From Elusimicrobiota bacterium (GTDB taxonomy: Bacteria; Elusimicrobiota; Elusimicrobia; UBA1565): 64,000 bases of DNA. Every line of letters begins with the position of its first letter. Within the stretch, counting starts at the first letter, position 1. The position numbers and the translations under genes were made by a program. Shown piece by piece: positions 9,817-42,804 of the stretch. The stretch covers positions 62,001-126,000 of the forward strand of contig JACPXC010000059.1 of NCBI GenBank assembly GCA_016196755.1, given 5' to 3'. The notes under the pieces are model-generated. The model was not told where the DNA came from, ran no database searches, and saw nothing but the letters and a program-made list of their open reading frames with translations.

Positions 9817-11565
9817 ATGAGACTTCTGCTCGCCATACTGTTCGTCGCCGCGCCCGCCTTCGCCGAGTCGGAAGGCGAACGCCTCCATGCCCTCTTCTCG
9901 CGCGAGTGGGAGTACGCGATGCGCGAGTCGCCGCTCTGGGCCTCGACGCTGGGCGACCGGCGCTACAATGACCGCTGGGACGACCGCGGCCTGGCGGCGC
10001 TCGAGCGGCGGCGCGCACACAGCGCCGAGCTCCTCGAGGAACTCGGCCGCTTCGATGAGGCCAAGCTCTCGCCCGCCGACCGCGTCAACTATAGGCTCTT
10101 CCGCCACGAGTACACGGAGTCCCTGGAGCGGCACGGCTTCCGCCTCCATTTCCTGCAGATCGACCAGCGCGGCGGCCCCCAGTCCACCGATGAGTACGTC
10201 GACAGCCTGCGCTACGAGACGGTCAAGGATTACGAGGATTGGGCGGCCCGGCTCGAGGCCTTCCCGGCGTACCTGGAACAGATCACCGAGGTCCTGCGCG
10301 AGGGGGCACGGACCAAGGTCCTGCACCCGCGTTTCGTCCTCGAACGCGTCCCCGAGCAGATCCGAGCCCGGATCCTCGACGAACCCGAGAAGAGCCGGTT
10401 CTACGAGCCCTTCAAGCGCATGCCGGCCGATTGGGCGCCGGAGGTCCGCGAACGCCTCGCCGCGCGCGGCGCGGCGGCCGTGCGAGAGGGCGTGGTCCCG
10501 GCCTTCAAGCGCTTCCTCGAGTTCTTCGAGAAGGAATACCTGCCGGCCGCCAGCCCCGAGGCCGGCCTGCGGCGCCTGCCGCGCGGCCTCGAGGCCTACG
10601 CCTTCCTGGCCCGCAGCTTCACCACGACCCCGATGACCCCGCCGCAGATCCATGCCTTAGGCCTCTCCGAGGTCAAGCGCATCCGCGCCGAGATGGAGAC
10701 GGTGAAGGAAGCCTCGGGCTTCAAGGGCTCCCTGCGCGACTACATGGACCACCTGCGCACGGACCCGCGCTACTTCTACAACGACCCGGAGGCCCTGCTG
10801 GCCGGCTACCGGGCCATTGCCAAGCGCATCGACCCCGAGATGACCAAGCTCTTCGGCAAGCTCCCGCGCGCGCCCTACGGCGTCGTGCCGATCCCCGCCG
10901 AGAGCGCCCCGCACACCACCACGGCCTACTACTGGGAGCCGGCCGCCGACGGCTCGCGCGCCGGCGCCTACTACGTCAACCTCTACAAGCCCGAGACCCG
11001 CCCAAAGTGGGAGATGGAGGCGCTGACCGTCCACGAGGCCGTGCCGGGGCACCACATGCAGATCTCCTTGGCCCAGGAGCTCGGCGAGCTGCCCAAGTTC
11101 CGGCGCTACGGCGGCTACACCGCCTTCGTCGAGGGCTGGGGCCTGTATTCGGAGTCCCTGGGCTACGAGATCGGCCTCTACCAGGACCCGGCCTCCAAGT
11201 TCGGCCAGCTGGCCTACGAGATGTGGCGCGCGGTGCGCCTGGTCGTCGATACCGGCATCCACCACTACGGCTGGAGCCGCGAGAAGGTCATCGACTACTT
11301 CCGGGAGAACACCCCGAAGACCGAGATCGACATCGCCAACGAGACCGACCGCTACGTCGTCATGCCCGGCCAGGCCCTGGCCTACAAGGTCGGCCAGCTC
11401 AAGATCAAGGCCCTGCGCGAGAAGGCCAAGGCCGAGCTGGGAGACAAGTTCGACCTGCGCTCCTTCCACGACGCCGTCCTGTCCCAGGGCGCGGTGACCT
11501 TGGACGTCCTGGAAGCCGTCGTCGACGACTGGCTCAGCGCCCGGAAGCGGATTTCGACGCCGTAG
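9817..11565 (+). CDS. exported DUF885 family protein (putative metallopeptidase)
   Basis: A 582-residue protein of the DUF885 family. Hallmarks are the long helical N-terminal half, HEAVPGHH (His406, Glu407, His412, His413) and YTAFVEGWGLYSESLG. I chose the ATG at 9817 because it follows an AGAGG ribosome site and begins a clean signal peptide (MRLLLAILFVAAPAFA). An in-frame ATG at 9805 overlaps the previous stop but has a poor ribosome site. Family members are thought to be zinc-dependent peptidases, but the substrate is unknown. Its 3' end overlaps the convergent M28 gene by 32 bases. Confidence 0.88.
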   Translation: MRLLLAILFVAAPAFAESEGERLHALFSREWEYAMRESPLWASTLGDRRYNDRWDDRGLAALERRRAHSAELLEELGRFDEAKLSPADRVNYRLFRHEYTESLERHGFRLHFLQIDQRGGPQSTDEYVDSLRYETVKDYEDWAARLEAFPAYLEQITEVLREGARTKVLHPRFVLERVPEQIRARILDEPEKSRFYEPFKRMPADWAPEVRERLAARGAAAVREGVVPAFKRFLEFFEKEYLPAASPEAGLRRLPRGLEAYAFLARSFTTTPMTPPQIHALGLSEVKRIRAEMETVKEASGFKGSLRDYMDHLRTDPRYFYNDPEALLAGYRAIAKRIDPEMTKLFGKLPRAPYGVVPIPAESAPHTTTAYYWEPAADGSRAGAYYVNLYKPETRPKWEMEALTVHEAVPGHHMQISLAQELGELPKFRRYGGYTAFVEGWGLYSESLGYEIGLYQDPASKFGQLAYEMWRAVRLVVDTGIHHYGWSREKVIDYFRENTPKTEIDIANETDRYVVMPGQALAYKVGQLKIKALREKAKAELGDKFDLRSFHDAVLSQGAVTLDVLEAVVDDWLSARKRISTP

Positions 11566-28182: not shown

Positions 28183-28213
28183 TCGGTGTCAGTTGTTGAA
28201 TAGTTGAATTGTT
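28183..28213 (+). repeat. left terminal inverted repeat of the RAYT-like element
   Basis: Begins TCGGTGTCAGTTGTTGAATA and continues to GTT at 28213. It is an exact inverted match of 29157-29187. Inside it the motif GTTGA recurs three times at 7-9 base intervals, which could be iterated transposase contacts. Confidence 0.9.
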
Positions 28214-39652: not shown

Positions 39653-40371
39653 CACGCCCCGCGCATCCGGAATTGCACCGAGTATTTGAGCAGCTTGAGC
39701 AGGAACTTGGGCGCCTCGACGAAGAGGTTGAGCTTCGACTGCCCATGGATGCGGTCGACGAAGGAGACCGGCACCTCGGCGATCTTGAAGCCGCAGTACT
39801 TGACCTTGAGGATCATCTCGAGGAGCAGCGAGTTGGTGTTCTCTTCCGTCGATATCTTCTTCCACACCTCGCGGCGGATGGCGCGGAAGTTGGCCGAGTA
39901 GTCGTGCAGGTCGAGCCCCACCAGGGCCCGCACGACGGCGTTGCCCAGCCGGCTGACCATGAACTTGAGCTTGATCTTGAGGTTCGGGGCCTCGTAGGAC
40001 CCCCCCCCGGCGTGGCGGCAGCCCAGGACCAGGTCGGCCCCCCCGTCGATGAGCTCGAGGAGCTTGAGCGCCTCGCGGGTGTCGAAGGACAGGTCCGCGT
40101 CGAGCGAGAAGAGCACGTCGTTCTTGCCGCGGTCGTAGCCGTAGCGCAGGGCCGCCCCGATCCCCTCGCGCCGCTCCTTGGTCAGGAGCTTGAGGCGCGG
40201 GTCGGTCTTGGCCATCGCCTCCACCACCTCCCCCGTACCGTCCGGGGAGCGGTCGTCGACCACCAGGATCTCGTGCTCGCGCGCCGCCAGCACCCCATGG
40301 AGTTGGGGGACGAGGATGGCGATGTTCTCCCGCTCGTTATAGGAGGGGATGATGACGGAAACGCTGAGCAT
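39652..40371 (-). CDS. GT2 family glycosyltransferase (DPM1-like)
   Basis: A 239-residue enzyme with SVIIPSYNERENIA, LVVDDRSPDGT, REGIGAALR and the DXD motif in FSLDADLSFD. The pattern ANFRAIRR and SFVDRIHGQSKL is typical of polyprenol-phosphate mannose synthases. The ATG is the first gene start after the hairpin-rich element, so its transcript may start in, or pass through, that element. A TACCAT box lies about 25 bases upstream but is weak. Confidence 0.92.
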   Translation of the reverse strand: MLSVSVIIPSYNERENIAILVPQLHGVLAAREHEILVVDDRSPDGTGEVVEAMAKTDPRLKLLTKERREGIGAALRYGYDRGKNDVLFSLDADLSFDTREALKLLELIDGGADLVLGCRHAGGGSYEAPNLKIKLKFMVSRLGNAVVRALVGLDLHDYSANFRAIRREVWKKISTEENTNSLLLEMILKVKYCGFKIAEVPVSFVDRIHGQSKLNLFVEAPKFLLKLLKYSVQFRMRGA

Positions 40372-40405
40372 TGATTTTTCGGGGATTCCCTAATGGTACA
40401 TGACT

Positions 40406-40427
40406 AATATTAACCGCGCCATACCCG
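40406..40427. repeat. 22-bp direct repeat, left copy
   Basis: AATATTAACCGCGCCATACC plus CG; an exact copy lies at 40834-40855. The right copy is the true 3' end of the GT2 gene, coding for its last residues and stop. The left copy is therefore a duplicate of the target, and the pair looks like an unusually long target-site duplication around the hairpin-rich element. Confidence 0.85.
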
Positions 40428-40443
40428 AAACAGGCCTCGGCGT

Positions 40444-40467
40444 CGCCTCGGTGCCCGCCTCGGTGCC
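40444..40467 (+). repeat. 12-bp tandem duplication at the left tip of the MITE-like element
   Basis: CGCCTCGGTGCC occurs twice back to back (40444-40455 and 40456-40467), the second copy running into the left TIR. A degenerate third copy (GCCTCGGCGTC) precedes them. It may record slippage or repeated insertion at the TIR tip. Confidence 0.8.
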
Positions 40468-40490
40468 AGTTGTTGACTTGTTGACTTTCC
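40459..40490 (+). repeat. left 32-bp terminal inverted repeat of the MITE-like element
   Basis: Begins CTCGGTGCCAGTTGTTGACT and ends in TTTCC. It shares TCGGTG-Y-CAGTTGTTGA and the downstream TTGA spacing with the RAYT-like element's TIR. It is an exact inverted copy of 40798-40829. Confidence 0.9.
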
Positions 40491-40535
40491 GGGGAAACTC
40501 AAAAAACGACGATATTTACGCGCCTCGGGCGCGTG

Positions 40536-40571
40536 GATCGAAGGATCGCCAACGACGGCGATCCTTCGATC
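40536..40571. repeat. perfect 15-bp-stem hairpin, left arm of the element
   Basis: GATCGAAGGATCGCC, loop AACGAC, then the exact complement. It follows a 7-bp-stem hairpin at 40518-40534 (ACGCGCC, TCG, GGCGCGT). Confidence 0.9.
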
Positions 40572-40676
40572 TCGAGGCAGGAACGGCAGAATCCCCGGCG
40601 AGTCGCGTGCACGCTTCGCGCACGGATTCACATCGATGATTCGAAACACGATCGAACTGTCCACGCGGACAGGCGG

Positions 40677-40698
40677 GAGCTATCCCCGGGGATAGCTC
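40677..40698. repeat. perfect 22-bp palindrome near the element centre
   Basis: Core AGCTATCCCCGGGGATAGCT with one more matching pair outside. A 6-bp-stem hairpin (CTGTCC, ACGC, GGACAG) lies just before it at 40657-40672. Confidence 0.9.
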
Positions 40699-40719
40699 TG
40701 TTCGCTGTTCATTGCTCCA

Positions 40720-40756
40720 GATCGAAGGATTGCGGCCGCATCGCAATCCTTCGATC
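40720..40756. repeat. perfect 15-bp-stem hairpin, right arm of the element
   Basis: GATCGAAGGATTGCG, loop GCCGCAT, then the exact complement. It shares GATCGAAGGAT with the left hairpin but differs in the stem top with compensating changes on both sides. The mirror copy of the 7-bp-stem hairpin follows at 40758-40774. Confidence 0.9.
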
Positions 40757-40797
40757 CACGCGCCCGAGGCGCGTAAACTGTTCCGTAAACTGGGACT

Positions 40798-40829
40798 GGA
40801 AAGTCAACAAGTCAACAACTGGCACCGAG
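40798..40829 (-). repeat. right 32-bp terminal inverted repeat of the MITE-like element
   Basis: Exact inverted copy of 40459-40490, ending in AACAACTGGCACCGAG. Confidence 0.9.
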
Positions 40830-40833
40830 ACGG

Positions 40834-40855
40834 AATATTAACCGCGCCATACCCG
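40834..40855. repeat. 22-bp direct repeat, right copy
   Basis: Same 22 bases as 40406-40427. On the minus strand it encodes the last residues VWRG and the TAA stop of the GT2 gene. Confidence 0.85.
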
Positions 40856-41563
40856 CAGGAGCAGGCGCAGGTAGCGGGGAAGCTCCCCCGCCGGCCGGAG
40901 TGAAGAGGCCCCGGGCTTCACGCCATAGTCGTAGACGAACGGCACCTCGCGGAACTCGCGGACGAAGGGGGCTAGACGCAGGAGGATCTCGGCGTTGCTG
41001 GCAAAACCCCCCACGCTCGTAAGGGCGTCGCCGTGTTCGGCAAGCGCCGCCTTGAGGGGGCCGACCCGATAGAGCCGGTAGAAGATGCTGTAGTCGCGCA
41101 CCCCCGGCAGGCCGCAGACGGCACGCAAGACGGCGTTGGCGGCCACGCTCAGGCAATGCCTCTGGAACGGGAAGCGCCGGTAGCCGCCGCCCGGGACATG
41201 GCGCGAGGCGATGACGACGTCGCAGGGCGGGGTCAGCGCGGCGGCCATCGCCGGCAGGAGCGCCGGGTCGCTGGTCCCGTCGCCCTCTAGGACCGCCACG
41301 ACCTCATCGTCGCCGGCGCCCTCGACGGCCGCTCGCAGGCCGGTCAGGAACGCCGCGGCAAGCCCGCGGTTGACGGGATGGCGTTTGAGGGTGAAGACCC
41401 TGCCTTTCGCCATCACCCGGGCGAGGACCCCCGCGGTGTCGTCGGTCGAGCCATCGTCCACGACGAATACCTTCCATGCGGGCTCGAGCCGCGCGAACAG
41501 GCCCTCGAGGCTGCGGCCTTCGTTGTAGGCGAGGATGACGAGCCGGAGCGCGGGACCGCTCAC
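40838..41563 (-). CDS. GT2 family glycosyltransferase
   Basis: A 241-residue GT-A enzyme: [36 protein letters not shown] and VLEGDGTSDP at the DXD site. The GTG start at 41563 overlaps the upstream stop (GTGA). The C-terminal codons and stop coincide with the right-hand 22-bp direct repeat of the MITE-like element, so insertion left the reading frame intact. Confidence 0.9.
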   Translation of the reverse strand: MSGPALRLVILAYNEGRSLEGLFARLEPAWKVFVVDDGSTDDTAGVLARVMAKGRVFTLKRHPVNRGLAAAFLTGLRAAVEGAGDDEVVAVLEGDGTSDPALLPAMAAALTPPCDVVIASRHVPGGGYRRFPFQRHCLSVAANAVLRAVCGLPGVRDYSIFYRLYRVGPLKAALAEHGDALTSVGGFASNAEILLRLAPFVREFREVPFVYDYGVKPGASSLRPAGELPRYLRLLLRVWRG

Positions 41564-42804
41564 GCGGCGCGCGCCGGCCCGAAGCGCAGCCAGAGGGCGT
41601 GGGCGCCGCAGACCGCCAGCAGGGCCGTCAACGGGAAGGCCATCACGATGTAGCGCGGCAGGCCCATCGTGAAGATGTGGATGTTCATGTAGAACAGCTG
41701 GAAGCCGGCCAAGAGGCCCTCGGGACGGCCGCGCACCGAGAACCAGCCGAACAGCGCCAGGCAGAGCACGCAGAACTCGAGCAGCTTGAAGGCGGCCTTC
41801 ACGGCCACGCGCCCCCACTCCCCGCGCGCGGCGTAGACGGAGACGCCTTCGATGAGGCCCGTCGTGCGCTCGGCCCAGGCGCCCCGGAACCACATCACCG
41901 GGATGCGCTTGAGGCAGTAGCCCGCGTAGCGCAGCGGATCAGCCTTGATGTTGGCCAGCGCCAGCTCCTTGGAGAGCGGGCCGATGCGCGGGTCCTTCGA
42001 GTAGAAGTAGGTGCGCAGCGGCTCGGGCAGGAGGTCGTCGGGCTGCACGCCCTCGACGGAGGTCGAGCCTTGCCAGAGCATGTGCGACCCCATGCCGTCC
42101 TCGAACGGGATCGCGCGTCCCACGACGGCCTTGTTGCGGACCATCCAGGCGGCCGTGAAAGCGTAGCAGCAGACCAGGAGCAGCGCGGCGCGGGCCCCGA
42201 CGCCCGGGCCGCGGCGGACCCAGACCAGCCCCGCGGCCAAGACCGGCGGCCAGGCCAGCATCGTCGAGCGCGTCACCAAGCCCAGGCCGAGCACGGCCCC
42301 GCAGGCCGCCCAGCGTCCCGCGCGCTCCGGGGCCTCGAGCACCCGGAAGGCGGTCAACGCGGCCAGGATGTACTCCAGGATGAAGAGCGACTCGGGACCG
42401 GCCGTGGGGTCGAGCTCGGCCAACTCGGGGTTGAGGCCGAAGAGCACGGCGGCGGCGGCCGCCCACGGCACGGGCAAAAGACGCTTGCCGGCGAAGAAGA
42501 CTCCCGCCGCCGCCAAGAGCGAGAACAGCGTGTTGAGCCCCACGATCGGCAGGTCCGACGGCGTCTGCCCGGCCAGCCGGAAGACGCCCGCGAGCAGGAG
42601 CGGATAGGCCGGCAAGCGGAAAGCCGTGGGGGTGACGCCGTCATAGGAATACGGCCGGCCCGCGGCGACGTTGCGGGCCAGCATCTCGAACTCGTTGGCG
42701 TCGTGCTGGTACTCGATCCAGGGCAGGGTGGCGCCCTGGAAGGCGCGGATGGCCAGGACCGCGGCGAAGGCCAGCCAGAGAGGCTTAGGTATCGGGTTCC
42801 GCAA
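41560..42804 (-). CDS. polytopic GT39-like glycosyltransferase
   Basis: A 414-residue membrane protein with an N-terminal helix followed by PWIEYQHDANEFEMLARNV, the GT-C acidic loop, then FRLPAYPLLLAG and about nine helices. The start is a TTG at 42804. A TAGCAT box lies only 6 bases upstream (42816-42811), so the transcript may be leaderless. It is the first gene of the minus operon running to 29.2 kb. Confidence 0.82.
   Translation of the reverse strand: MRNPIPKPLWLAFAAVLAIRAFQGATLPWIEYQHDANEFEMLARNVAAGRPYSYDGVTPTAFRLPAYPLLLAGVFRLAGQTPSDLPIVGLNTLFSLLAAAGVFFAGKRLLPVPWAAAAAVLFGLNPELAELDPTAGPESLFILEYILAALTAFRVLEAPERAGRWAACGAVLGLGLVTRSTMLAWPPVLAAGLVWVRRGPGVGARAALLLVCCYAFTAAWMVRNKAVVGRAIPFEDGMGSHMLWQGSTSVEGVQPDDLLPEPLRTYFYSKDPRIGPLSKELALANIKADPLRYAGYCLKRIPVMWFRGAWAERTTGLIEGVSVYAARGEWGRVAVKAAFKLLEFCVLCLALFGWFSVRGRPEGLLAGFQLFYMNIHIFTMGLPRYIVMAFPLTALLAVCGAHALWLRFGPARAA

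Follow-up and report, generated by a model that had tools for sequence, protein, structure and literature searches.

REP doublets (REPINs) have been described together with their RAYT transposases (Bertels and Rainey 2011, PMC3116915). In the TIRYT/TIRtron pattern, a TIR flanks a Y1 gene and recurs as dimers dispersed over the genome (Di Nocera et al. 2013, PMC3733652). We compare with these systems a 406-bp unit, at 40428-40833 of a 64-kb window (the whole stretch of DNA analysed), which consists of two mobile pieces, one nested in the other. The outer layer is, to judge by its sequence, of an already known kind, a TIRYT (Y1-transposase) TIR pair. The inner piece, the core, is a new variant: a REPIN-like element in which each arm carries two hairpins, hp1 and hp2.

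Like REPINs, the core is an inverted pair of hairpin units of high copy number, extragenic and non-autonomous, for which no TSD is seen, and it shares with them compensatory changes and a clover-like alternative fold. Unlike REPINs, it has two hairpins per arm and a spacer of 100-400 bp, its arms vary independently, it rides in the ends of other transposons and no RAYT lies alongside. Moreover, no consensus for a GTAG-type tag beside the hairpin could be found in the core arms, where the sequence leading up to hp2 is GTG and then G or C. In IS200/IS605 elements the end hairpins are recognised as single-stranded DNA and no TSD is made. The core as we propose it below resembles them in its hairpin ends and in the lack of a TSD; however, IS200/IS605 elements encode TnpA and their ends are not inverted, whereas the core has no transposase gene and its arms are inverted copies.

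The unit in the window and its outer TIRs

The interior of the core is mirrored (hp1-hp2 ... hp2-hp1) around two central palindromes, and a third hairpin, GTGCACGCTTCGCGCAC, is confined to the left (Table 1). An earlier note on this DNA had reported perfect 32-bp TIRs having TCGGTG-Y-CAGTTGTTGA in common with a TIR at 28183, and within them a mirror layout of 7-bp and 15-bp hairpins with central palindromes; all of these features are present and the hairpins are perfectly paired. Folded as DNA, the unit has a minimum free energy of -140.9, compared with -74.6 ± 4.1 for dinucleotide shuffles (z = -16). The exact 22-bp direct repeat AATATTAACCGCGCCATACCCG stands on either side. In its right copy the minus-strand gene 40838-41893 ends, stop codon included, and the entire unit has therefore probably been inserted at that gene end. 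Relatives possess the downstream gene, but the last 80 bp and the left neighbour differ. No covariance model of Rfam 15 gave a match above its gathering score in 40200-41050, and known plasmids and IMG/VR viral contigs contained no match.

Table 1. Features of the 406-bp unit and its flanks, in window coordinates
Feature	Position	Strand	Remarks
22-bp direct repeat, left copy	40406..40427		Duplicated target; identical to 40834-40855; just two copies in window
Tandem partial copies of TIR start (GCCTCGGCGTC GCCTCGGTGCCC)	40434..40456	+	Comparable partial end duplications at TIR dimers L259, L268, L271
Outer TIR, left (TIRYT type 1)	40459..40490	+	Same TIR around Y1 transposase G000:C26 (L056); short dimers elsewhere
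Inner core element, 281 bp	40506..40786		Ends ACGACGATATTTACG / ACGGAACAGTTTACG; consensus end ACGGMGNNATTTACGCGC in >100 arms
hp1, left arm (hairpin of conserved sequence)	40518..40534	+	17 nt, perfectly paired, 7 pairs including closing pair
hp2, left arm (15-bp stem; sequence variable, pairing conserved)	40536..40571	+	Perfectly paired
Inner hairpin GTGCACGCTTCGCGCACGG	40607..40625	+	In G000 usually in both arms; in window unit left only
Central palindrome CTGTCCACGCGGACAG, one central mismatch	40657..40672		Similar CTGTCC/CTATCC palindromes central in other copies
Central perfect palindrome GAGCTATCCCCGGGGATAGCTC	40677..40698		Seen in window sequence
hp2, right arm	40720..40756	-	15-bp hairpin, perfectly paired
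hp1, right arm	40758..40774	-	17 nt, perfectly paired, 7 pairs including closing pair
Outer TIR, right	40798..40829	-	Perfect 32-bp partner of 40459..40490
22-bp direct repeat, right copy	40834..40855		Overlaps 3′ end and stop codon of minus-strand gene 40838-41893

The outer TIR shares 28/28 bases with the TIRs of a Y1 gene on another contig of the window's genome, G000 (G000:C26:5745). The earlier note had partnered the unit with the RAYT-like gene at 28183. The TIR of that element is related to the window TIR but is not the same; the matching transposase is the one on C26, with which the 28183 protein shares 67% identity. In G000 the type-1 TIR forms compact 65-82-bp inverted dimers on contigs C6, C10, C14 and C58, with clusters on C18 and C37, and the 65-82-bp dimer is its usual non-autonomous form in this genome. 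The outer layer is thus like TIRYT/TIRtron dimers in that the same TIR surrounds a Y1 gene and dimers are dispersed in the genome. Unlike such dimers, which have a spacer of ~7-25 bp, the window unit holds a 281-bp foreign core and is flanked by a 22-bp duplication; its arm spacing is 307 nt as against ~7-25 nt in the other TIR dimers, and it is not compact. The 22-bp duplication is atypical of Y1 chemistry and was not seen at other TIR dimers; template switching at the hairpin base is a possible source. Tandem duplications of 11-47 bp, comprising flank and TIR start, occur at the outer edges of dimers (L031/L271, L034/L259, L032/L268 and window 40434-40456), which suggests that the hairpin base is prone to slippage or is processed repeatedly. 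At L263 (G000:C18 ~10886-11017) a GGTGTCAG-type TIR dimer has been inserted into a GGTGCCAG-type dimer, with partial end duplications at the boundaries, and nesting is therefore not confined to the window.

Copies and carriers of the core

When the 406 bp were searched against the window's own genome (G000; 4.59 Mb, 67 contigs), almost all of the 117 matches fell in the inner part. A scan of a genome collection located the core in the Elusimicrobiota MAGs FW305_bin.15 (same genus), CG_4_9_14_3_um_filter_62_55 (same family) and NC_groundwater_1680, which we infer to correspond to G001, G005 and G002, respectively. With a covariance model of one arm we counted 68 arms in G000, at least 127 in G001, 23 in G005 and 5 in G002; a few more were found in other members of the family and in a sister one. 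Throughout the phylum, 9 of 295 genomes match at E <= 1e-6 and 286 lack a match. There are 63 complete inverted pairs and more than 190 arms in two genomes, extragenic and at gene ends; complete elements are mostly 196-450 bp long (median 275). The core is on this distribution an independent and previously unnamed Elusimicrobiota repeat family of ~200-450 bp with two inverted arms. It has no transposase gene. The earlier description of the unit as non-coding and non-autonomous is supported, and so is the resemblance to a large REPIN, likewise pointed out before.

The distribution of the outer TIR in G000 differs from that of the core. The window unit is the sole type-1 TIR pair with a core; type-1 TIRs occur at ~7 other places without core and cores at ~30 other places without type-1 TIR. 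Most cores in G000 lie inside other transposon ends, of at least three unrelated kinds. One kind (type 4: TIR GGCTCATGGCAC, 288-453 bp) has perfect 8-bp TSDs at 4 of 5 places, indicating that the composite moved with the core inside. Type-4 composites, which carry the core, are in these respects like the bacterial MITEs of DDE transposons; the core itself is unlike them, since it also occurs without those ends and without TSD. Members of this miniature transposon family, with GGCTCATGGCAC TIRs, perfect 8-bp TSDs and the core as cargo, were seen at L014, L038, L010 and L012 (G000 C39, C57, C60 and C13), and a search with the 13-base pattern revealed no autonomous partner for them. Further ends around G000 cores are of the kinds GGGACAGTCCCTGAAGTTCTGATT, CTCCCAGTTCCCGGGGTTT and GGTGCCATACATTGAGAAGTTGAGAAG, and at L020 the core lies in a type-4 piece that is itself enclosed by a TIRYT-like pair. 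In G001 cores are mostly bare, with L103 and L127 inside another TIRYT-like TIR pair. TIRs and hairpins, which the earlier note took for one element, thus part company: the hairpin core is a separate family, found bare or inside several other transposon ends, and the composite is more general than first noted.

Three elements of G001 have flanking genes that are adjacent or nearly so in G002 with the element absent between them, and in one case also in G000. These empty sites are presence/absence differences between congeners, from which we infer the direction. Bare cores have no TSD, the flank LCS being 3.89 against a shuffled null of 3.74 ± 0.12 (n = 44).

Some copies contain other material. 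IS110-like transposase genes, from a group of IS that favour REPs, lie within or beside core or TIR palindromes at L024 and L005/L022, the centre of the L024 core carrying an IS110-like insertion. L037 (490-1215, G000:C16) is a rare core with protein-coding cargo, a DUF6998 gene with a core arm on either side, all within GGGACAGTCCCTGAA-type TIRs. The centres of L084, L092, L111 and L117 (G001) hold a further nested inverted module, AAGTGGGC ... TTTACCGCCAAAATGGCGGTAAA ... GCCCACTT.

Conservation of the hairpin stems

Across the copies hp1 is near-invariant in sequence and hp2 is invariant in pairing. In 65 arms, a seed set picked partly for good stems, 12 of the 14 hp2 pairs showed changes on both sides and 98.4% of cells were paired, compared with 25-45% for slid partners. 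Because of the bias of this set, arms were collected anew by hp1 alone. Among the resulting 178 arms, hp2 is strong in 170 and perfect in 134, whereas random sequence almost never forms such a stem. Moreover, in copies from other families (L176, L177 and L178) hp1 is kept and the hp2 sequence is entirely different yet paired. The 2505 hp2 pairs include 12 G.T, 20 A.C and 15 other mismatches. This absence of a wobble (G.T) preference argues for structure at the level of DNA, not RNA. Selection on stem structure had been called plausible in the earlier note, and the stems are indeed conserved as structure, with inner stems paired across ~170 copies. An alignment of copies had also been proposed there, with stems that decay while TIRs stay as the contrary pattern; copies of the inner part are abundant, their stems co-vary and stay paired, and the outer TIRs are the variable part. 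On this evidence, some enzyme appears to recognise the fold as such.

The left and right hp2 stems of one element differ at a mean of 2.7 of 13 positions and are identical in 2 of 63 elements, whereas mismatches within single hairpins average 0.14 and 0.22. In G001 and G005 together, left and right arms show the degree of identity expected from the shuffled null (z -0.5 to 0.9). Arms of the same element are no more alike than those of different elements, and each arm is therefore separately maintained. Of the mirror-image design, then, the layout stands, but the notion of one big palindrome does not, as the two arms vary independently. The minimum-energy fold favours cross-arm pairing into one giant cruciform, but the lack of correlation between left and right arms led us to reject this as the conserved structure.

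Proposed mechanism and alternative readings

We hypothesise, with a probability of roughly 0.6, that the unit is a nested composite whose core, non-autonomous and REPIN-like, is recognised in the form of single-stranded DNA hairpins. The outer layer would be a non-autonomous TIRYT TIR pair moved by Y1 (HUH single-tyrosine) transposases that have these TIRs, and the core would be separate from, and wrapped by, these independently mobilised ends. An enzyme working in trans would recognise each arm as a folded single-stranded DNA end, as is known for the ends of IS200/IS605 and has been proposed for REPINs; hp1 would be the specific recognition site and hp2 a structural handle whose sequence does not matter. 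The lack of TSD would follow from integration into exposed single-stranded DNA, and gene 3′ ends may be where insertion is tolerated or favoured. At the window site the composite would have arrived as one unit, leaving the 22-bp duplication. A fuller version, in which hp1 of the composite ends is read by sequence and hp2 by shape alone by an enzyme that is neither RAYT nor TIRYT, and in which the element travels bare or as a passenger in unrelated transposons and settles at gene ends, insulating convergent genes there, is speculative and we regard it as doubtful.

RAYTs usually adjoin their REPs. Core arms, however, flanked 0 of 30 Y1_Tnp loci in five genomes (G000, G001, G002, G005 and G007), and G159 has core arms without a Y1_Tnp match. 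L051 (G000:C41:102240-103190) encodes, in single copy and without TIRs, a Y1 (RAYT-like) protein that has a DnaA-C-like tail. About 30 genomes of the order contain close homologues, 46-85% identical to it, and from its sequence it looks like a domesticated transposase. As a candidate mobiliser of the core it is present in most core-bearing genomes, but close homologues also occur in genomes of the order that lack the core and thus it is not diagnostic.

That the whole 406 bp is one co-evolved MITE, its TIRs and hairpins moved together by a transposase of the 28183 type, deserves next to no credence: the similarity of the window TIR to that at 28183 and the 22-bp duplication around the entire unit would fit, but the separate distribution of type-1 TIRs and cores largely refutes it and the matching transposase is at C26. 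It is also very unlikely that a DDE transposase moves the core with the variable outer ends as real termini. Type-4 composites with their perfect 8-bp TSDs, and type-3 ends of similar appearance, speak for this; however, copies in G001 and G005 are mostly bare, with ACGG ends and no TSD, and several unrelated kinds of outer end occur.

Two further readings concern why the stems stay paired, and both are unlikely. If the core were kept as a functional gene-end element, such as a two-way transcription terminator or a stabiliser of mRNA 3′ ends, its position and not its mobility would explain stem conservation. In G001, G005 and NC, 20 of 38 elements lie between convergent and 2 between divergent genes, as called by a simple codon-position GC rule, and 53 stop codons fall 0-53 nt from the first hairpin. 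REPs nevertheless share this bias towards gene ends (PMC3733652), two elements scanned held no T-tract intrinsic terminator, the G.T tolerance expected of RNA-level selection is missing from the stems, and G000 cores are mostly within other transposon ends. Template-switch (quasi-palindrome) correction during replication, as opposed to selection on structure, would agree with the near absence of all mismatch classes rather than of A.C alone, and with two features of G000 that are typical of hairpin-driven slippage, perfect palindromes at the centre and tandem, partial duplications of the ends. Against it, the position and stem length of hp2 and the sequence of hp1 are kept across two families despite a replaced hp2 sequence, and the arms do not correct one another. 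Perfect stems could still owe something to such templated correction rather than to selection.

Whether RAYT/REPIN-like recognition works by sequence, by shape or by both is hard to test with few well-studied families. Here, ~170 hairpins with dozens of different stems beside a near-constant hp1, across genera and two families, make a ready substitution series for shape recognition. Moreover, the same core has been captured repeatedly, in Y1-type TIRs and in a transposon with 8-bp TSDs, which illustrates the assembly of bacterial mosaic repeats by nesting.
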